Position numbers and translations under genes: made by a program. The notes below the pieces were generated by a model. It was given only the letters and a program-made list of their open reading frames with translations. It did no database searches and had not been told where the DNA came from. Positions 1,900 through 43,900 of a stretch of 64,000 nt of DNA are shown here, in pieces; position 1 is the first letter of the stretch, and every line of letters begins with the position of its first letter. Source of the DNA: Lachnospiraceae bacterium. Its GTDB lineage: Bacteria; Bacillota; Clostridia; Lachnospirales; Lachnospiraceae. The DNA lies in contig JAFUVF010000007.1 in assembly GCA_017483735.1 (NCBI GenBank), positions 1 through 64,000 of the forward strand, read 5' to 3'.

Positions 1900-2067
1900 A
1901 AGTCGGGATTTATATATGTTTGCTTGCTTTGTTTCACTACCCTCATTTTGCTTCAGTTGCATTACCTCGCTCTGACGACCCGCAGTTCATGTCGTCGCCG
2001 CTTCGGTAGCAATTCGCAAAATTCAGTCGTTCAACATGCTGCGCAATCCATATATAAATCCCGACTT
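1900..2067. repeat. Long inverted-repeat element, 19-bp perfect arms
   Basis: The arms AAGTCGGGATTTATATATG (1900-1918) and its exact reverse complement (2049-2067) flank about 130 bases that hold no plausible gene. The element sits directly behind the hydratase stop and ahead of the sigma-D promoter of the next gene. It could be a small non-autonomous repeat (MITE/REP-like) or a large structured 3' end. No second copy was seen in this window, so its nature is open. Confidence 0.55.
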
Positions 2068-2114
2068 TAAAGTTTTCTATATTTTATCGGCAGGAGCCCC
2101 TTAAAAATTTAGCC

Positions 2115-2141
2115 TAAATTTAAACTGTTATACTCCGATAT
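2115..2141 (+). promoter_or_regulatory. Sigma-D (SigD/FliA-type) promoter
   Basis: TAAA at 2115-2118, a 15-base spacer and TCCGATAT at 2134-2141 match the motility sigma factor consensus TAAA-N15-GCCGATAT at nearly every position. It lies about 90 bases upstream of the calcium-loop gene at 2232, which puts that gene in the motility regulon. It resembles the flgM promoter at 8361. Confidence 0.7.
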
Positions 2142-2151
2142 ATTAAGTACA

Positions 2152-2216
2152 GGGCGAATGCGCAGCGCCCAAGTAAATATAGGCGTCCACGCCAGACAGG
2201 GATGTGGCGGAGGACG
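2152..2216 (+). promoter_or_regulatory. Structured 5' leader with two hairpins
   Basis: Hairpin one pairs GGGCG (2152-2156) with CGCCC (2166-2170). Hairpin two stacks CGTCC/GGACG (2184-2188 with 2212-2216) on CGCCA/TGGCG (2190-2194 with 2205-2209). The second ends three bases before the Shine-Dalgarno AAGGAG at 2221 and encloses the apparent ATG at 2202, which argues against that start. I could not match the fold to a known riboswitch class. Confidence 0.4.
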
Positions 2217-2231
2217 GGAAAAGGAGTATTA

Positions 2232-3395
2232 TTGAGGATAGATTCCAGTAAGGTAGGAATGGAATCCGAAAGGACTTACGAGTCCACAAAGACATCCTCG
2301 AAACGATTTTTGCTATCTGACTATGCGGGAGGCAATGCTTCAAAAGACGGACTGAATGCATTTGTTTCCTACGGAAACGGTGAAAATGCCGGAAAACAAA
2401 CTGAATATGAATCCGACAGTATTATTGCCGTTTCTTCGGACTGGCAGGAACGCTTTGAGGGAAGGTACAACGCTTCATTTTTGAAGATAAGCGTTACAAG
2501 CAATGAGTCTTTGTCAGCCACAAGGAATGTGGGAGTAACACAAACGGGAGAATCCGGTAACGGAGAAAACTCCATTCAGGCTGTGAAACGGCAGGCGCTT
2601 CTCTACATTTTCGAGATACTTTTCGGGAAAAAGAGAGACAAATTAAAAGACCTGTTGGACAGATACGGATTTGAGACAGCCCAGGCAGGTACGGGAATGA
2701 CGGCACAAGGTCCTGTTACCCTTACCTACGAAAACGAGCAGTACTTTAACGAGAAGGAGAACACCTCCTTTTCCTCGAAAGGGACGGTAAAGACTGCGGA
2801 CGGAAGGACGATTGATTTTGATATCAATGTCGGCATGAGCAGGGAGTTTGAGGAATATTTCAAGGAGAATATGCAGATACAAAAGCTTAATCTCTGCGAC
2901 CCCCTCGTAATAAACCTAAACGACAATGTGGCAGGTCTTTCCGACCAGACCTTTTTCTTCGACATCGATGCGGACGGAGTGAAGGATGAGATATCAGAGC
3001 TCTCCAAGGGAAGCGGATATCTTGCCCTCGACAAAAACGGAGACGGCATCATAAACGACGGAAGCGAGCTTTTCGGAACCAAATCAGGGAACGGTTTCAA
3101 GGAGCTTTCCGCCTATGATGACGACGGCGACGGCTGGATTGACGAAGATGATGAGGTGTGGAGTAAGCTCAAAATCTGGACGAAGGATGAAGCCGGGAAG
3201 GACATTCTTCTGACCTTGAAGGAGGCCGGTGTGGGTGCCATAAATCTTCAGAGCGCCAAGACGAATTTTTCTCTGAATGATGATAAGAACAACACCAGAG
3301 GCGTCATCAGAAACACGGGCATATTCCTCTATGAAAACGGTAATGTGGGAACCGTGCAGCATCTGGATGTCAACAGGTATTCTAAGTTGGCGTAG
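2232..3395 (+). CDS. Calcium-loop protein of the motility regulon, function unknown
   Basis: The start is set at TTG 2232 because AAAAGGAG lies five bases before it; an ATG at 2202 is buried in a leader hairpin. The protein would begin MRIDSSKVGMESERTYES and has no signal peptide or membrane segment. Residues about 244-308 hold a run of Asp-rich loops (DIDADGVKDEISEL, DKNGDGIINDGSELF, DDDGDGWIDEDDE) like the EF-hand/dockerin-type calcium loops seen in exported bacterial proteins. The middle is not recognised. The sigma-D promoter links expression to flagellar genes. A role in surface or secreted calcium-dependent adhesion is possible but unproven. A terminator follows at 3437. Confidence 0.7.
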   Translation: MRIDSSKVGMESERTYESTKTSSKRFLLSDYAGGNASKDGLNAFVSYGNGENAGKQTEYESDSIIAVSSDWQERFEGRYNASFLKISVTSNESLSATRNVGVTQTGESGNGENSIQAVKRQALLYIFEILFGKKRDKLKDLLDRYGFETAQAGTGMTAQGPVTLTYENEQYFNEKENTSFSSKGTVKTADGRTIDFDINVGMSREFEEYFKENMQIQKLNLCDPLVINLNDNVAGLSDQTFFFDIDADGVKDEISELSKGSGYLALDKNGDGIINDGSELFGTKSGNGFKELSAYDDDGDGWIDEDDEVWSKLKIWTKDEAGKDILLTLKEAGVGAINLQSAKTNFSLNDDKNNTRGVIRNTGIFLYENGNVGTVQHLDVNRYSKLA

Positions 3396-3436
3396 TCCGC
3401 CAAAAAGACAGTTATAGTTTCGAAATGTATAAAAGT

Positions 3437-3478
3437 AATAAGGGTACGCACTTAAAGTGGCGCACCCTTATTCTTTTT
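3437..3478 (+). terminator. Rho-independent terminator
   Basis: AATAAGGGT (3437-3445) pairs with ACCCTTATT (3464-3472), with further inner pairing, and is followed by TCTTTTTG. It closes the calcium-loop gene. Confidence 0.7.
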
Positions 3479-3519
3479 GTTGAAAAATAAAGGGATACGC
3501 TGTAAAATTAGAAAAGTAT

Positions 3520-4797
3520 ATGTGTAAAAAAAATTTTTTGAAAAATATCATAGGAAGAGCGCTTGCTTTTGCAGCAGGTATAGCGCTCATTATAAATATC
3601 TGCGGCTGTGGTATGACAAAGAGCGCCGTGGAGACGGTGTCCGTAATACCAATGGAGAGTGTTGCGGTGCTTGACTATACCCTTCCAAAGAATACGCCGG
3701 GGGTAATAATCGACAAAAACGGGTATCATCCGGAAAGCCTCAAACGTGCGGTGCTTGCAGGGAAAAAGCTTCCGGAGAGCTTTGATATTATAGATGCCGA
3801 AACTGGGGAGACAGTTTTTTCGGGAGAAGTGAAAAACATCACGTATTCCGAGAATGACGGCAAATATGTGGGGTATGCGGAGTTTGACGACCTCGACAGA
3901 GAGGGAGAGTATTACATACGTTGTGAACATATAGGCTTTTCCTACACCTTCAGAATATCGGAAGCAATTTATGCCGAATTGTATAATGAGCTTTATGCGG
4001 AATTTGTCGACAGCATAAAAAACAAAACGGCGGATGAGGAGAATATACTTGCACTGCTTCTGTCATATGAATATCATCCCGGCATATACGGGGATGAAAA
4101 TTCAAACGACATTCCGGATGTTTTGGAATACATAAAGGAGTGGGTAAGAAATATTGATTACACCGGAATAGAAGCCTCTAAAAGCTCCGGCTATGTGGCG
4201 GTGCTGGCAAAGTATTCATACCTCTATCAGGATTTTGACAGGGCTTATGCCACAGAGTGCATACAGAGAGCCTCATCCCTATTTAACCAGTCGAAGGATG
4301 AGGTAAATAATGACGGCGGGCTGTTTTTTGCGCTGACGGAAATGTACAGAGCCACCGGCAGAGCCTCCTATGGGGACAGGATTATTGAGTACAAGGAATA
4401 CCTAAGCGCCAATACGGCTTTTACTACGGACAGAGGCTATCTCTACGGCGCAATGACCTATATGCTGACGAGACAGCGCATAGATACGGAATTGTGCCAG
4501 CTTTTTATGGACAGGGTAACGGACAGGGGAGTAAGCATAATGGATACCTATAGGGAGCTGATCAAGCCTACGGGAGCCAGAAACTCCGGCGCAGATGATG
4601 TGCTTTCCAGAGCGGTGGAGCTCTCCTGCTCGAACGTCATATTCAAAAGCTATCAGTACGACTGCATAGAGGAGGATTTCTTGCATTATCTTCTGGGCTG
4701 CAATATGTCGTCGGAGGAGCTGTACCCCGGAAGCGGAAGCAGAAATGATTATCTTATTCTGCTCGGGCTGGTATCGGATGTATATAATGAGGAATAG
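3520..4797 (+). CDS. Lipoprotein with cellulase-N-terminal Ig-like domain
   Basis: The N-terminus has a basic stretch, a hydrophobic core and Cys28/Cys30 (INICGCG), so it is probably a lipoprotein on the outer face of the membrane. Residues about 58-145 (VIIDKNGYHPESLKRAVLAG ... GEYYIRCEHIGFSYTFRI) look like the Ig-like domain that precedes GH9 endoglucanases. The remaining 280 residues are helical and could be a degenerate alpha/alpha barrel, but the GH9 catalytic Asp pair and Glu were not seen, so enzyme activity is doubtful. The ribosome site before ATG 3520 is weak. The stop is two bases before the alpha/beta hydrolase start, so it is probably the first gene of an operon with MurF and Ddl. 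It may bind wall or glycan material. Confidence 0.6.
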   Translation: MCKKNFLKNIIGRALAFAAGIALIINICGCGMTKSAVETVSVIPMESVAVLDYTLPKNTPGVIIDKNGYHPESLKRAVLAGKKLPESFDIIDAETGETVFSGEVKNITYSENDGKYVGYAEFDDLDREGEYYIRCEHIGFSYTFRISEAIYAELYNELYAEFVDSIKNKTADEENILALLLSYEYHPGIYGDENSNDIPDVLEYIKEWVRNIDYTGIEASKSSGYVAVLAKYSYLYQDFDRAYATECIQRASSLFNQSKDEVNNDGGLFFALTEMYRATGRASYGDRIIEYKEYLSANTAFTTDRGYLYGAMTYMLTRQRIDTELCQLFMDRVTDRGVSIMDTYRELIKPTGARNSGADDVLSRAVELSCSNVIFKSYQYDCIEEDFLHYLLGCNMSSEELYPGSGSRNDYLILLGLVSDVYNEE

Positions 4798-8387: not shown

Positions 8388-8432
8388 ATATTACAACAGG
8401 ATGTGAAATCTTTTCGGAAAGGAGGAAATGAT

Positions 8433-8711
8433 ATGCGTATAGAAGCTTATAATCAGGTAAGTTCGCTCTATCAGGCAAAGAGCATCAAAAGACCCGCTTC
8501 CGCTGCGAATACAGCGTATGTAAGCGACAGGGTTCAGATAAGCAGCCTCGGCAAGGATTTCCAGACAGCCAAAGCCGCAGTGGCACAGGCTTCTGATATC
8601 AGAGAGGATATAACGGCTCCCATAAAGGAGAAGATAAACAACGGAACCTATTCTGTAGACACGGGAAGCTTTGCAGAGAAGCTCCTTGCCAAATATGAAG
8701 AGTTGAGGTAA
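8433..8711 (+). CDS. flgM: Anti-sigma-D factor FlgM
   Basis: A 92-residue FlgM-type protein that holds the motility sigma factor inactive until the hook is complete. The start is ATG 8433 behind GGAAAGGAGGAAATG; the in-frame ATG at 8403 lacks a ribosome site. The N-terminus (MRIEAYNQVSSLYQ) and C-terminal helices with ISSLGKDFQTAKAAV and YSVDTGSFAEKLLAKYEEL are typical. It is the first gene of flgM-flgN-flgK-flgK and has its own sigma-D promoter. Confidence 0.9.
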   Translation: MRIEAYNQVSSLYQAKSIKRPASAANTAYVSDRVQISSLGKDFQTAKAAVAQASDIREDITAPIKEKINNGTYSVDTGSFAEKLLAKYEELR

Positions 8712-9249: not shown

Positions 9250-11001
9250 ATGTCGTTGATGAGTGCATTATATACGGGAACATCCGGGCTGCAGACCAGC
9301 CAGAATGCTTTAAATACCACAGGTCATAACCTTACGAATATTGATACTGTCGGTTATACCAGGCAGCAGGTTGAGCAGGCAGATAAATCCTATATAACCA
9401 TACAGAGAAATACATCCATAATCTCCAACAAGCAGTACGGTCTCGGCGTTGAGTACGCAGACGTAAAGCAGGTCAGGGATTATTTCCTCGACAAATCCTA
9501 CAGACAGGAATCGGGAAGACTGGCATTCTATGAGGTTTCAAGGGATGTTATGCTTGAAATCGAAAGCCAGCTCGGCGAGATGCAGGGAAAAGCCTTTCAG
9601 GAGGCAGTTACCGATCTTTGGACCTCCGTTGAGGAAATGTCAAAGGATCCCTGCAGCAGCGTAACACAGGCTCTCTTTGCCCAGAAGGCATCAGAGTTCA
9701 TAGAGAGAGCGGGAGCCGTATATGAGGGCTTCAGCGACTATCAGGACAATCTTAATGCTCAGATAAAGCAGCAGATAGAGAAGATAAATAAATACGGGAA
9801 CAGAATCCTCGAGCTCAATGAGAAAATCGGCGCCATTGAGGCGGGCGGCATTGAGCGTGCGAATGACCTTCGCGACGAGAGGAATTATATATTGGATCAG
9901 CTGGGAGACCTTGCAAAGATATCCTTCTCGGAGGATCAGTGGCATCATGTTTCGGTTCAGATCGAGGGAGTGGATTTCGTAAAGGGCAGCATGTGCTATG
10001 AGATCGCTCTGGACCAGGACAAGGAAACCGGCTTTTATACACCTTTCTGGCCGATGAACGCATCCTATACCATCAATAATGATGGCAACAAGGTATATGA
10101 CACGGACGGCGCAGAGGTTTTCAATCTTAAGATAGAGATATCTACGGATCACAATACAGATATAGGACGTATAAAGGGAATGCTTCTTGCAAGGGGAGAC
10201 CACAGAGCAGACTATACGGACGATCTTAATAATTATTCGGCTATAGAGCAGTCGGTGGTAATGAATGTGCAGGCGGAATTTGACCTTCTGATACACTCGG
10301 TTTCCACCAAGATAAACGAAGTTATCGGGGCGGCAGCAGGCGTAAAGACAAATACCGACGGACTTACCTTTACCTTAGAGGACGGAACTGAGCTCAAGGG
10401 AGAGAATATTAAATACGCAAAGGTGGACACCACCGATACAGGCGGGTATTTGAGGGACAATTCCGGAAGACCCATGCAGATATTTGTAAAGTCGGTGACC
10501 GACGGATATGTAAAGGCCACCGGCTCCGACAACGAGGAGTATTGGGTATATGTGGACGAGATTCCGGACAGAAAGGATTCTCTGTATTCTGTCAGGAACA
10601 TCCAGATAAATCAGGAGCTTATGCAGTCTCCGGGAGAGCTTGGTTTCAGGCTTATAGACGGCTCCGAGGACAATGACACCATGGCAAAGCTTAAGGAGGC
10701 ATACCGTTCGGAGGAATACTTCCTGAATCCAAGAGTCCGCAAGGCTTCTAATTTTGAAAGCTTTTATAACGATCTGGTGGCGCAGATAGGAAATTCCGGT
10801 TATGTATATAAGGGAATATATGATAATCAGGAGAATACAGTTGAGAGCATTACCAGCGCCAGGGAGCAGATTGTGGGCGTAAGCTCTGACGAGGAGCTGT
10901 CAAATATGATAAAGTTCCAGAACGCATACAACGCATCCAGCAGATACATCAATGTTATCTCGGAGATGCTGGAGCACATAATAACGACTTTGGGACGATG
11001 A
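9250..11001 (+). CDS. flgK: Flagellar hook-associated protein FlgK (copy 1)
   Basis: Hook-filament junction protein, exported by the flagellar type III system. The N-terminal rod-like motif (SALYTGTSGLQTSQNALNTT and GHNLTNIDTVGYTRQQV) and the C-terminal helix (MIKFQNAYNASSRYINVISE) are the conserved coiled-coil ends; the middle is the variable D2/D3 domain. It is 583 residues, within the family range. A second flgK follows 30 bases later. Confidence 0.93.
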   Translation: MSLMSALYTGTSGLQTSQNALNTTGHNLTNIDTVGYTRQQVEQADKSYITIQRNTSIISNKQYGLGVEYADVKQVRDYFLDKSYRQESGRLAFYEVSRDVMLEIESQLGEMQGKAFQEAVTDLWTSVEEMSKDPCSSVTQALFAQKASEFIERAGAVYEGFSDYQDNLNAQIKQQIEKINKYGNRILELNEKIGAIEAGGIERANDLRDERNYILDQLGDLAKISFSEDQWHHVSVQIEGVDFVKGSMCYEIALDQDKETGFYTPFWPMNASYTINNDGNKVYDTDGAEVFNLKIEISTDHNTDIGRIKGMLLARGDHRADYTDDLNNYSAIEQSVVMNVQAEFDLLIHSVSTKINEVIGAAAGVKTNTDGLTFTLEDGTELKGENIKYAKVDTTDTGGYLRDNSGRPMQIFVKSVTDGYVKATGSDNEEYWVYVDEIPDRKDSLYSVRNIQINQELMQSPGELGFRLIDGSEDNDTMAKLKEAYRSEEYFLNPRVRKASNFESFYNDLVAQIGNSGYVYKGIYDNQENTVESITSAREQIVGVSSDEELSNMIKFQNAYNASSRYINVISEMLEHIITTLGR

Positions 11002-11031
11002 TCTTTCAAGGAGTGACGAGGAGGAAAAAAT

Positions 11032-12993
11032 ATGACCTCACAATTTTTCGGATTAAATATCGCATATACAGGTCTTCTTGCCAGCAATGCGGCTATGAAC
11101 ACCACGGCAAACAACATAGCGAATGTCCAGACTGACGGATATTCCAGACAGCATGTGAACCAGCAGGCGGCAAATGCGCTCCGTGTGTTCCAGACCTACG
11201 GATGTGCAGGCGCCGGCGTGGAAACCCTTTCCATCGAGCGTATAAGGGATGAATTCTACGATGGAAAATACTGGGCGAACAATTCCCATGTGGGAGAGTA
11301 TACCCAGAAGGCATATTATATGCAGCAGATAGAGACATATTTCGAGGACAATGGAGAGAATGCGGGATTCAAGACAGTATTTGACAGATTTATGGTAAAT
11401 GCCCTTGAAGAGCTTATGAAAAATCCCTCCTCCGAATCAACAAAGGCACAGTTTGCAGGCGCTGCCGGAGACCTTACGGAATATTTCAACGGTCTTGTCG
11501 GAAATATGGAGGCGCTCCAGAAGGATGTAAACCAGGAGATAAAATTAAAGATTGACCAGATCAATTCAATAGCCTCTGAGATAGCCAGCCTCAACAAGCA
11601 GATAAATACGATTGAGCTCTCCTCGGCAGGGAAGGCAAACGAGCTCAGGGACAGGCGTACAAATCTTATTGACGAGCTCTCGGAGATCGTGGATGTGAAT
11701 GTGACCGAGATTCCTATAATAGATCCGGATCATCCGGACAGAGTGACGGGCGCCAACAGGTTTATGGTAAAGATTACAGGAGGCGGACTCCTTGTAGACG
11801 GAAATGATTACAACGGACTCATCTGTGTTGCGAGGGAGCCCTATGAGAAGCTCAACCAGACGGATATAGACGGCCTCTATGATGTGTATTGGGAGCAGAA
11901 GCTTTTAGGAAAGGTTGACGAGGAATTTAATTACAGGGAGAACGGACAGAAGTTCAATCTTTCAAGTGGAGCTCTGCAGGGAGCTTTGAAGGGGCTTGTG
12001 GATATGAGGGATGGAAATAACGGTGAGTATTTCCACGGCGATATCACAGGACTTTCAAAGGGAAGCGCAACCGACCCTGCGGACACCCGGCAGAGAGTAA
12101 CCATCACAGTGAATAAGGATACACCGTATCTGACGGATCTGAACAAGTGCAATCTCTCCGACCAGGGCGGCATAATACAGCTGGGCGATACATTATATTA
12201 TTATGACGAATGGACCTATAACAGGGATGCGTCGGGCAATGTGAGCTATGATTTCGTCATTTCCTCAGAAAGGAACGATTCCCTTGTGGGAAATGAAAAG
12301 CTTTTACAGGATGCAAAGATAGGCGTTGCTACCAACTATCAGGGTATTCCCTATTACCTAAAGCAGGTAAACGAGTGGGTAAGGACCTTCTCCGAAAAGT
12401 TCAATGACATATTGAAGGCAGGAGTAACCTCCGACAATATAAACGGTGTGAATATGTTTACCGGCGACCATGCAGTGGAAGGACAGTTCCTTCTGGAGGA
12501 TACCGTTGGCGGTGTGAACAAAAAATATTATGAGGACGGCGCAGTATCCGTTGCGGTAAATGATGACAGCTATTACAGGCTTACCGGAAAGAATTTTGCG
12601 ATATTCGGCACTATAGAGAATAATCCGCAGATGATGGCGACGAAGTATTCGACTGCGGATGGCGTGGAGAAGAATAATGACCTTTTGAGTGACCTTAAGG
12701 TAATGGCCTTCGACAAGACCAAGATATCCTTTAGGGGAGCCTCCGCATCGGAATTTTTGACAGGGGTATTGTCGGATGTGGCGCTTAACGCATCCAGAGC
12801 TAACAGCTTTAAGGATTGCTATTCGGATATATTGAATACGATAGACAACCAGAGAATATCAATCTCGGGAGTGGACGAGGACGAGGAAGCGGTAAATCTT
12901 GTAAAATATCAAAATGCATACAACCTTGCCTCTAAAATGATTCAGACTTTGACCGAAATATATGATAGATTGATACTGCAAACCGGAGTCTAA
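11032..12993 (+). CDS. flgK: Flagellar hook-associated protein FlgK (copy 2)
   Basis: A second FlgK-type protein of 653 residues with the same terminal signatures (NIAYTGLLASNAAMNTT, NNIANVQTDGYSRQHV; C-terminal LVKYQNAYNLASKMIQTLTE). The start is ATG 11032 behind GAGGAGGAAAAAAT. The central domain differs strongly from copy 1, so this is an old duplication rather than a recent one. The two proteins may form mixed or alternative junctions between hook and filament. Confidence 0.9.
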   Translation: MTSQFFGLNIAYTGLLASNAAMNTTANNIANVQTDGYSRQHVNQQAANALRVFQTYGCAGAGVETLSIERIRDEFYDGKYWANNSHVGEYTQKAYYMQQIETYFEDNGENAGFKTVFDRFMVNALEELMKNPSSESTKAQFAGAAGDLTEYFNGLVGNMEALQKDVNQEIKLKIDQINSIASEIASLNKQINTIELSSAGKANELRDRRTNLIDELSEIVDVNVTEIPIIDPDHPDRVTGANRFMVKITGGGLLVDGNDYNGLICVAREPYEKLNQTDIDGLYDVYWEQKLLGKVDEEFNYRENGQKFNLSSGALQGALKGLVDMRDGNNGEYFHGDITGLSKGSATDPADTRQRVTITVNKDTPYLTDLNKCNLSDQGGIIQLGDTLYYYDEWTYNRDASGNVSYDFVISSERNDSLVGNEKLLQDAKIGVATNYQGIPYYLKQVNEWVRTFSEKFNDILKAGVTSDNINGVNMFTGDHAVEGQFLLEDTVGGVNKKYYEDGAVSVAVNDDSYYRLTGKNFAIFGTIENNPQMMATKYSTADGVEKNNDLLSDLKVMAFDKTKISFRGASASEFLTGVLSDVALNASRANSFKDCYSDILNTIDNQRISISGVDEDEEAVNLVKYQNAYNLASKMIQTLTEIYDRLILQTGV

Positions 12994-14813: not shown

Positions 14814-14864
14814 ATTTTTGCTGTGAAAACAAAATAAGCACTTCGGGTGCGGAATAGGAGTCAT

Positions 14865-15326
14865 ATGAAGATAAATACCAGAGTATTTGGCGAAGTGGAA
14901 GTATCCGACGACAAGATAATAGTTTTTGAGAACGGAATCATAGGATTTCCTGATATGAAGAAGTTTACCATGCTGCATGATGAGGAGAAGGGTGCTGACG
15001 CAGGAATAAGATTCCTTCAGTCATTGGATGAGCCTTCCTTCGCAATGCCCGTTATGGATCCTCTGGTTGTAAGGGAGGACTACAATCCTCAGGTGGATGA
15101 GGATCTGATCAAAGGGATAGGAGATCTCAATGAGGAGAATCTTCTGATACTTGTCACAGTGACGGTTCCTCAGGATCTTACCAAAATGACGGTCAATCTT
15201 CAGGGACCCATCATCATAAACGTAGATACAATGAAGGCTGCACAGGTTATCATAGAGGGCGATAATTATTCCGTCAGATTCCCTGTATATGATATACTGA
15301 AGTCAGGACAGGAAGTTAAGGAGTAA
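14865..15326 (+). CDS. fliW: Flagellar assembly factor FliW
   Basis: A 153-residue FliW protein, which binds flagellin and CsrA in a partner switch that tunes flagellin translation. The start is ATG 14865 after AATAGGAGTC; the first in-frame codon 18 bases upstream has no ribosome site. Family motifs: [52 protein letters not shown]. csrA follows four bases downstream, the standard pair in Firmicutes. Confidence 0.95.
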
Positions 15327-15330
15327 AGAT

Positions 15331-15549
15331 ATGCTTGCTTTATCAAGAAAAAAGAACGAGGCAATAGTAATCAACAATAATATCGAGGTTACGATCCTAG
15401 AAGTCAAGGGAGATCAGGTAAAGATCGGTATCTCCGCCCCCAAGGAGGTGCCTGTGTACCGTAAGGAGGTATATCTCCAGATTCAGGAGGCTAATAAATC
15501 CGCAGGCGAGGGTATCACGGGACTTGCGGAGCTCAAAAAGTTTATCTGA
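15331..15549 (+). CDS. csrA: Carbon storage regulator CsrA
   Basis: A 72-residue RNA-binding translational repressor. [23 protein letters not shown] and [19 protein letters not shown] are the complete CsrA signature, including the conserved Arg near residue 44 that contacts RNA. It is coupled to fliW, which antagonises it, and a terminator follows at 15581. Confidence 0.96.
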
Positions 15550-40913: not shown

Positions 40914-43900
40914 ATGAAGTTTGGAAAAAAGGGTATTGCCATATTGCTTGCAGTACTTATGGCATTGCCTTCCATGACTGCATTTGCGGCAGAGCCTTCC
41001 GTTTCCGGTGGGGATACGGATACGGTTTCTGACGGGGATGCAGGAGCGGGTTCCGGCACTCAGACGCCGAATGAGGTTAGTTTTAATGTCGGTGCAAGTG
41101 TCGCCGTTGGCAGTAACAAATATTTCCTGGACGATGGCAGTTATACAATAAATTTGTCTGCTGCTGTAGATGATGAAGGAAATAAGGCAGTATTTACATT
41201 CCCATATGAAGTTCAGTTCAAGGTGGGAGATGAGATTACGACCAAATGGTTTGATAATCCCGACAGTACGGTTGAAGTGGGCGGACATCAGTTTGCGCTT
41301 AGTATTCCCAAAGATGACGAAGGAAATGATTTATATAATAAATTTGTATTCAATATCGGCGGGGACAAGGTAACTCTTTATCCGGAGGAAAAGTCCTTTC
41401 CGGAGGAGGCCTGGACCAAGATAACAGTACAGCCCTCCACAAGAGTGCGTCTTATGATGGCAAGAAGCAATACATCCCTTATACTTCCTGTTACGCAGAC
41501 CTTGAGTGTGAATTTGTCAGGGTATGCCCCGGTGGAGCTGTCAATGGTGTCTATTGATGCGGTATTAGGCGGACATGTAACAGCCGGGGACAAGGTTGCA
41601 TGGTCAGCATCAAGTTATTATTCGGATATAAACAGGGAAGTGACTATAAGCGGCTCGGGAAGCAGCATTGACCTCGTTAATGTATCTACTCTCGATATGG
41701 TAGTAGGTAATGAGGCGGATCAGTTAAATTCCACAAACGCTAGATATATTGTCAATATTAGTACAGGAGGAAGTCAAACTCATTGGCTTGTTCCTACGCT
41801 CAAAAGTACAGGTGGTGCCGCTATAAATGTGAATAACTACAATTATTCCAAAAGCGCCGGCACTTCCTCAGGTGTGCCATACAAGGGATATGAGCGTATA
41901 TATGTAAATGAAAACGACATGCCCAAATCCAGCACGGAGGCGTATGTGACACTCACAGTAGACAGTGCACATAATTACAGTACTATAAAGGCGTTTGAGG
42001 GCGGATATACCGACCCCACAGCAATCAGTGGAACGGATATAACCGCACAGCTCTTTGGAAGCGGATATCGGATGAAGCGGAATGGTACTGTAGTCACTCT
42101 GGTATGCTATGATGCGACAAGCAAAGTGACAGGGTGCCTGCCCATAAAAATTTACATAAGCACAGATACTGATGGAGTCCAAACAGGCAGTCTGTACGAT
42201 GAAAACGGGCTAATAGTTTATAATTCATCATCCAGTTCAACAAGCGATGGCTTAACAACACGTACTTATGAGCTGTATAAGGGATATGCAGTAAACGGAA
42301 CATACTATCTTAAAATGAGATATGAAACGAACGGTACTACAAATAACGGCGCAGTTACGGCGGCGTATGCAGGAAATTATGCCTCTGCAGCAGCGGCGCA
42401 ATCCGCCGGGGCATCGGATATAAAGGCTGCACTTTTTGGCGGTACAGGATATGCGGCGGATTATAGCAATGGTGTTTACTTTACAATAATAGCAGGCACC
42501 AGTGTGGAAAAGTTTTTGATAAAGACGACTGCGGGCCTGATTCCGGAAATCGTATCCTTCAATAGAATAGATACTGATCCGGTAATTGATTTTACGGGGC
42601 TCAAAGATGCGGCGGGAAATACTATCGCAGGTGTGTATTCTGCGCCATACAATCTTGATAACTACGGGGAGTACAATTTCCGTACCCTCATTGTTCCGGC
42701 AGGTACTGATTTGACCAATGTGGCGCCTGTATTTACGACATCCGATGCGAATACCGTCGTAAAGGTAGAAGGATCTAGTACCGCAGAGGTGTCAGGAGAG
42801 ACAAAGCACGACTTGAGTAGTGGGCTTTTGCAGTACAGTGTCCTAAATGGCGATTACAATCGCTCATACTGGTTGCAGATAATAAAAGCGGATACAGGGG
42901 CATACAGGCTCTATGTGAACAGCTTAAAGGATGTTGCATCAAATACTACGGTATCCAATGGGGTAGTGACATCCACCAGAGAGATTATGCTGGATGGTTC
43001 CCATAATTCCAGGCACGATATAATGGTAGTGAATACCGGTTCGACAGTAGTGCCCTCCTTAAAGGTAGAGCTTAGCTCGGACAGTCTGGAGCTTGATGAG
43101 TACTGGACCCTTTCGGGAAATCATGATCTTGCTGCGCTTACAACTACGGTTCCCGGCAGTGATTATCAGGAGCTTCCGAATATTGCGATGATTCGGTTGA
43201 AAGCAAAAAGCGGAGTTACAAGCGGAACAGAGGTGGAAGGTACGCTTACTTTCAAATCCGGTACGGATACACTCATGGTGTTAAATCTTACCGGTCTGAT
43301 TGGAGACCCCATAATAACCACGACATCGATACCTGAAGCCGTGAAATATGTACCATATGGTCCGGTATTACAGAATAACAATAAGTACAGAAAAAATGTA
43401 CCTATATATGAGTTATACAGCGGTACCTTGCCTGAAGGTCTCGAGGTGCGTCCGAACGGAGAGATATACGGTGTGCCAAAGGAGACGGGAAGCTTTACCT
43501 TCAAAGTAAGGATGAGAAACACTTATCCCAGAAGCTCCACTGATACCAAGGAGTATACTCTTGTGGTAAAGGAAAATACTGACGCCAATGTTGACGGCGC
43601 AACCGATACCAGCTATACCCTCCTTGACAGAATAGGGAATGTGGACGGTTCGGCTGCGACCTATATGCTTCGCTCGCAGGGTGCGCTTGGAGAATTTAAG
43701 TATGTGTTCTACGACGGCGTGAAGCTTACGGAGGGTACGGATTTCACAAAGTCAGAGGGAAGCACAAGGATTACAATTCAGTCACAGACCTTGCAGAATG
43801 CTGGGAACGGAACACACACAATAGGTATAGAGTTCCGTGATTCCGGAGACAATCTGAAGCGTGCGGCACAGAATATAAAGGTTACCGGAAGTTCGGGAAG

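Follow-up and report, generated by a model that had tools for sequence, protein, structure and literature searches.

The self-processing module (SPM) of FrpC, a secreted protein of 1829 amino acids from Neisseria meningitidis (PMC3034196), is the closest described relative of the protein reported here. Calcium folds this module, the Asp414–Pro415 bond breaks, and the resulting anhydride of Asp414 can form a bond with a lysine (PMC7078468). According to the same source, the FrpC SPM is unfolded without calcium, a P415A variant retains folding, cleavage is strongly reduced in D478A, and D579A is inactive while D579N is active (PMC7078468). Work on the FrpC SPM uses 1–10 mM calcium. RTX proteins with SPM-like regions have been described, among them FtxA of the Gram-positive bacterium Filifactor alocis (PMC7692872), and the clip-and-link chemistry has so far been studied in large RTX proteins. 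The physiological role of the module is only beginning to emerge; a pig pathogen is weakened when its ApxIVA is devoid of the SPM (PMC7078468). Our literature searches, in part at the level of titles and the openings of abstracts, brought up no account of an SPM family that stands alone, lacks RTX repeats and belongs to the flagellar regulon, nor of a link between SPMs and flagella, and the SPM passages of PMC3034196 do not treat such a family. Here we characterize by computation a protein, designated as P0001, which we consider rather likely to be an SPM protein without RTX repeats that belongs to the flagellar (sigma-D) regulon and splits itself in calcium.

The P0001 gene occupies positions 2232–3395 of the plus strand of the window, i.e., the whole 64,000-nucleotide stretch of Lachnospiraceae DNA that was analysed; it begins with TTG, ends with TAG and codes for 387 amino acids. 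We assigned the start to TTG 2232 because the homologues line up from the first residue, with the motif (L/M/V)RIDSSxxGMES, behind a Shine-Dalgarno sequence, which in the window is AAAAGGAG (2219–2226, plus strand). ATG 2202 was rejected as the start; it sits within a leader hairpin, and the homologues begin at TTG 2232. The product has a mass of 42.7 kDa and a pI of 4.6, and the gene is present in a single copy in its own genome. A search of Pfam and NCBIfam found no family (Pfam E ≤1), and PHROGs gave two insignificant matches (E 0.1). Hydropathy, used here in place of a dedicated predictor, indicated neither a signal peptide nor a membrane segment, the highest 15-residue Kyte-Doolittle mean near the N-terminus being −0.23. 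Both results agree with the sequence-only reading, in which the gene was described as not a known flagellar gene and its product as lacking a signal peptide. Pfam also detected no flagellin domain and, at E ≤1, no RTX nonapeptide repeats, whereas three long RTX-repeat proteins (L074, L075 and L076) do match PF00353. The latter carry an SPM-like domain with Asp-Pro and are encoded by flagellated members of the same family. Among viral contigs, none of eight pattern matches was a relative, and none of 21 matches in plasmid records spanned 80% of the protein.

The C-terminal residues 224–387 (2901–3392, plus strand) were recognized as an SPM-like domain by phmmer, profile search, Foldseek and structure comparison. 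With P0001 as the query, phmmer matched the FrpC SPM at E 8.6e-8, followed by lanmodulin and another EF-hand protein at E 0.7–0.9; a profile of 42 sequences, in which 41 aligned homologues are 34–51% identical to the window protein, matched it at E 5.9e-12 and aligned the Pro224 of the family with Pro415, the first residue of 6SJW. The AlphaFold model, built from the homologue alignment, had a mean pLDDT of 83–97 per ten residues over positions 221–380. Residues 221–386 of this model gave Z 17.0 against 6SJX (155 residues aligned, rmsd 2.5), and the same model gave Z 16.9 against 6SJW, while the next best structure reached only Z 3.5. Foldseek likewise paired the model with the FrpC-type SPM at E 3.8e-9. 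As modelled, residues 224–386 of P0001 form an FrpC-type SPM.

Three Asp-rich loops lie in this region and are nearly invariant among the 42 aligned sequences: DIDADG at residues 244–249 (2961–2978), and two EF-hand-like loops at residues 267–279 (3030–3068) and 296–307 (3117–3152), all on the plus strand. The latter two are the counterparts of FrpC residues 462–474 and 499–511, so that two of the four FrpC calcium sites are clearly kept, and DIDADG aligns with an FrpC segment outside the four listed sites. The counterpart of the first FrpC site (N228, N230 and N232; 2913–2927, plus strand) starts with Asn in 40 of the 42 sequences, and the last site (FrpC 521–532) is shortened. The three loops had been noticed beforehand and taken as the mark of a calcium-responsive protein; the loops are real, but they belong to an FrpC-like SPM with an invariant Asp-Pro, which had been overlooked.

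The predicted scissile bond, Asp223–Pro224 (codons at 2898–2903, plus strand), falls at the FrpC D414–P415 boundary. Asp-Pro was found here in all 60 loci that contain the place, including the window, and in every one of 24 additional loci, giving 84/84; these loci hold five near-duplicate pairs, the truncated L059 was dropped, and L066 and L067 are duplicates of L002 and the window. As a control, we inspected nine SPM-like domains of other proteins, namely five of the 21 plasmid matches, chosen for spread, and L074–L077. Six had Asp-Pro and three had Thr-Pro or Ser-Pro, and the SPM fold therefore seems not to demand Asp. Given that Asp223 is invariant in a fold that seems not to need it, the scissile bond is apparently used. 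Other residues important in FrpC were less well matched in the 42 sequences. D478 has no Asp counterpart and falls in an insertion, the residue after the invariant G282 being Thr in 31, Ala in 10 and Ser in 1. The counterpart of D579 is uncertain, being either H/Q377 or the invariant D379. As for the Trp pair, W316 is the residue aligned with FrpC W519 and recurs in 40 of 42 sequences; no Trp of P0001 aligns with W451. Since the differences at D478, W451, D579 and the calcium sites stand against the invariant Asp-Pro, we rate self-cleavage of P0001, by analogy with FrpC, as probable only.

The same differences are what would be expected if the module were degenerate, i.e., if it still bound calcium and adopted the SPM-like fold but no longer cut, and had instead a structural or binding role in which calcium stabilises it. 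The missing Asp counterpart of D478, the missing Trp for W451 and the alteration of two of the four calcium sites all speak for this explanation, which, although unlikely in our judgment, is the strongest of the alternatives. The retention of Asp before Pro in 84/84 loci speaks against it. Folding alone does not explain an invariant Asp, because the P415A variant of FrpC still folds (PMC7078468) and other SPM-like domains have Ser-Pro or Thr-Pro. We accordingly favor a module that has kept its cleavage activity.

The N-terminal part, residues 1–223 (2232–2900, plus strand), consists of a conserved first strand, a variable middle and a long beta hairpin at about residues 162–211, and is the piece that cleavage would release. 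Its N-terminus is modelled by AlphaFold as a beta strand and not as a disordered signal. The model of this part (mean pLDDT 67) gave Z values of up to 5.6 against membrane-attack-complex/perforin chains; we dropped the idea of a pore former because a Z under 8 may reflect merely a common arrangement and because the model is weak.

Flagellar genes occur close to the P0001 gene in the window, starting with flgM (anti-sigma-28; 8403–8711, plus strand; PF04316). At 9250–12993 the window holds two consecutive flgK-type genes, an arrangement also found in Eubacterium and Roseburia (PMC3720852). We did not adopt the neighborhood as proof of a flagellar role, as the flagellar genes of the window had no homologue in 48 locus stretches. 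Among 15 further stretches, L134 has homologues of flgM, flgN and flgK, and L148 has flagellin-like frames; flagellar neighbors were thus recognized only at the window, L134 and L148, other neighbors being read by eye. Downstream of the P0001 gene, positions 3520–4797 match CelD_N and glycosyl hydrolase 9, and a homologue of this frame is present in 38 of 49 stretches with an SPM gene, window included.

This scarcity of recognized flagellar neighbors, together with the hydropathy result and the N-terminus modelled as a strand, speaks for a calcium-responsive protein that stays in the cytoplasm and modulates motility with no export at all. The calcium requirement argues against such a role: the FrpC SPM is studied at 1–10 mM calcium, and the usual cytoplasmic level is far below this range. 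FrpC itself is, in addition, a secreted protein (PMC3034196). We judge a purely cytoplasmic function to be improbable and place it after the degenerate module.

Upstream of the gene lies a sigma-D (sigma-28) type promoter, TAAA-N15-TCCGATAT, at 2115–2141 of the plus strand (TAAA at 2115–2118, TCCGATAT at 2134–2141), as the sequence-only reading had proposed. The strict pattern TAAA-N14-16-NCCGATAT occurs twice in the 64 kb against 0.04 expected from shuffles, and 20 times genome-wide against 9 for a reversed-pattern control; owing to the latter ratio, a single strict match is not proof, and the recurrence of the site ahead of homologues carries more weight. The second match in the window is at 41353–41380 on the minus strand. 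A relaxed pattern (TAAN or TTAA, N14-16, NCCGATAT) was found within 400 bases upstream of the gene in 39 of 60 loci, or 38 of 59 without the window, whereas shuffles over the 60 loci gave a mean of 0.07 and a maximum of 1. When TCGATA was also allowed, 51 of 60 loci had a match within 350 bases (shuffle mean 1.22, maximum 4), and L019 had a promoter-type match at −464. Loci from other families (L083–L096, of which L086 has a doubtful start) showed the promoter in only 4 of 14. Elsewhere in the same genome, the strict pattern also lies ahead of a flagellar gene of the rod/hook type. Three function-unassigned genes of this genome, L112, L123 (DUF4885) and L128 (DUF6033), likewise lie behind strict sigma-D-type sites. 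Between an aconitase-like gene and the P0001 promoter we noted a perfect 19-base inverted repeat (1900–1918 and 2049–2067), with its arms 130 bases apart.

The genomes that carry the family have flagellar genes. In a sample of 150 Lachnospiraceae genomes, 35 had a match (E 1e-10), and 35/35 were among the 78 genomes with FlhA (hypergeometric 1e-12); the two counts apparently refer to the same 150 genomes, and in G109 and G144 the match lies solely within long open frames. In a class-wide sample of 196 genomes, 29 had a match, those in G204, G216 and G269 being weak or partial, and 28 of the 29 were among the 84 genomes with FlhA; the remaining genome, G245, has flagellin. These co-occurrence counts are not independent of ancestry, although many families are represented in the class sample. 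L060, from a genome labelled Persephonella in which flagellin is present, is also a homologue and is arranged in the same way. Taken together, control of the P0001 gene by sigma-D, as predicted from these patterns, is well supported, because the promoter recurs at the homologues, the carriers have flagellar genes and the pattern precedes a rod/hook-type gene; sigma-D control had been proposed in the sequence-only reading. Although the genome-wide ratio of 20 to 9 leaves room for a chance match in front of an ordinary housekeeping gene, this explanation is very improbable in light of the recurrence of the site type at 38 of 59 other loci and of FlhA in all sampled carriers except G245, which has flagellin.

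The promoter is followed by a 5' leader RNA (2142–2231, plus strand) with two predicted hairpins (2152–2170 and 2184–2216). Its folding exceeded that of shuffled sequences, with z −2.67 for 2142–2235 and z −4.46 for 2174–2225, which covers the second hairpin. At a predicted hairpin tip lies a CsrA-like candidate site, AGACAGGGATGT (2194–2205, plus strand), that fits the CsrA SELEX consensus RUACARGGAUGU, whose GGA is mostly in a hairpin loop (PMC7652899), at 11 of 12 positions. The window also encodes fliW (14847–15326; PF02623) and csrA (15331–15549; PF02599), both on the plus strand. Of 71 loci, 33 carried CANGGAYG in the 350 bases upstream (shuffle mean 2.87, maximum 8); the set comprised the 60 loci and 11 of the 24 further ones, the 11 being chosen for having a promoter match. 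GGA-loop hairpins occurred in the upstream 250 bases of 27 of 59 loci (shuffle mean 4.9, maximum 10). In the genome of P0001, five of seven chosen leaders had a GGA-loop hairpin (shuffle mean 0.16, maximum 2). The seven were those of the P0001 gene, of L062 and L064 (two of four flagellin-family genes) and of four genes behind strict promoters; L064 has no identified promoter, and L063, L065 and other promoter matches, with apparently unrelated or absent downstream frames, were left out. The P0001 leader itself failed the strict test for a GGA hairpin with a six-base loop and four pairs, though AGACAGGGATGT is at a predicted hairpin tip. Translation of P0001 is perhaps tuned by CsrA-FliW, as judged from these sites. 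Among the other leaders, that of the flagellin gene L062 (G000:C9:6401 onward; an open frame of 1685 codons) contains a CCGATAT element and a GGA-loop hairpin, GCTC[ACGGAG]GAGC, directly before the start codon, and those of L112 and L128 contain GGA-loop hairpins.

In 24 loci, CNNGGAYGG in the leader leads directly into a long hairpin that often has AAGGAU in its loop and a T run behind it, which resembles an intrinsic terminator; L014, L061, L016 and L022 are among the loci with such a hairpin and GGA sites upstream of the SPM gene. An alignment of 20 of these leaders contained eight predicted pairs, two of which have changes on both sides. A model built from this alignment, R1, gave a single site in each of 10 genomes out of 14, with only 150 of about 1,900–4,100 first-look candidates per genome being scored, and no site in the genome of the window. 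All ten sites are upstream of the SPM gene by coordinates, and R1 therefore looks specific to this gene; we rejected it as a general flagellar leader RNA for the same reason. The arrangement suggests that the leader hairpin of the relatives is a candidate attenuator. Rfam gave no match on the window, and on seven loci its sole match, in L024, was a SAM riboswitch that has nothing to do with the SPM gene, with none in L014, L061, L016 and L017.

For a self-cleaving P0001, the computed fold and homology, invariant Asp-Pro, promoter type and co-occurrence with flagella can be combined with the calcium-triggered cleavage and linking that FrpC would lead us to expect. Sigma-D would transcribe the gene late in flagellar assembly, and in the calcium-poor cytoplasm the 42.7-kDa precursor would keep its module open. 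Once exposed to millimolar calcium, which would most likely happen outside the cell, the module would fold on calcium and strain Asp223–Pro224. The chain would then split into an N-terminal piece of about 25 kDa and the 18-kDa module, the former carrying a reactive Asp anhydride that would either undergo hydrolysis or form a bond with a lysine close by. How the protein would leave, and where it would act, we can only reason about. Flagellar export takes unfolded chains, and because the FrpC module is also unfolded without calcium, a flagellar exit is attractive. P0001 might accordingly be exported unfolded through the flagellar channel and fold outside, where calcium would fold it and its Asp anhydride would tie the N-terminal beta domain covalently to host material, flagellin or the cell surface. 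In flagellated Clostridia, and in at least one genome with the label Persephonella, the flagellum would then serve to deliver a protein cross-linker triggered by calcium. We regard this extended scheme as doubtful, and clearly less likely than self-cleavage as such.

The resemblance to the FrpC module hints that flagellated bacteria may use cut-and-glue chemistry. If this is true, a compact relative in the flagellar regulon would offer both a new setting and a small test system for the clip-and-link reaction, would add a covalent, calcium-timed reaction to the late products of motility, and could supply small natural modules for protein ligation.

The hag gene of Bacillus subtilis has a sigma-D promoter. 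Its control by CsrA-FliW (PMC7652899) resembles the setting of the P0001 gene in the combination of a sigma-D-type promoter with a CsrA-like leader site, fliW and csrA being present in the window; hag, however, codes for flagellin, whereas the P0001 product is not flagellin. Flagellinolysins, which are proteolytic flagellins (PMC7643111), share with P0001 the idea of an enzymatic activity tied to the flagellum, but they use other chemistry, and no flagellin domain was found in P0001. FtxA of F. alocis (PMC7692872) and L074–L076 are Gram-positive relatives that, like P0001, have an SPM-like region; they are large proteins with RTX repeats, while the P0001 family shows none. Compared with FrpC, P0001 is short (387 versus 1829 amino acids; PMC3034196), is devoid of RTX repeats and of clear counterparts of D478 and W451, and is encoded behind a sigma-D-type promoter. 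What it has in common with the N. meningitidis module (6SJW and 6SJX) is the fold, the Asp-Pro at the N-terminal boundary and two of the four calcium loops.
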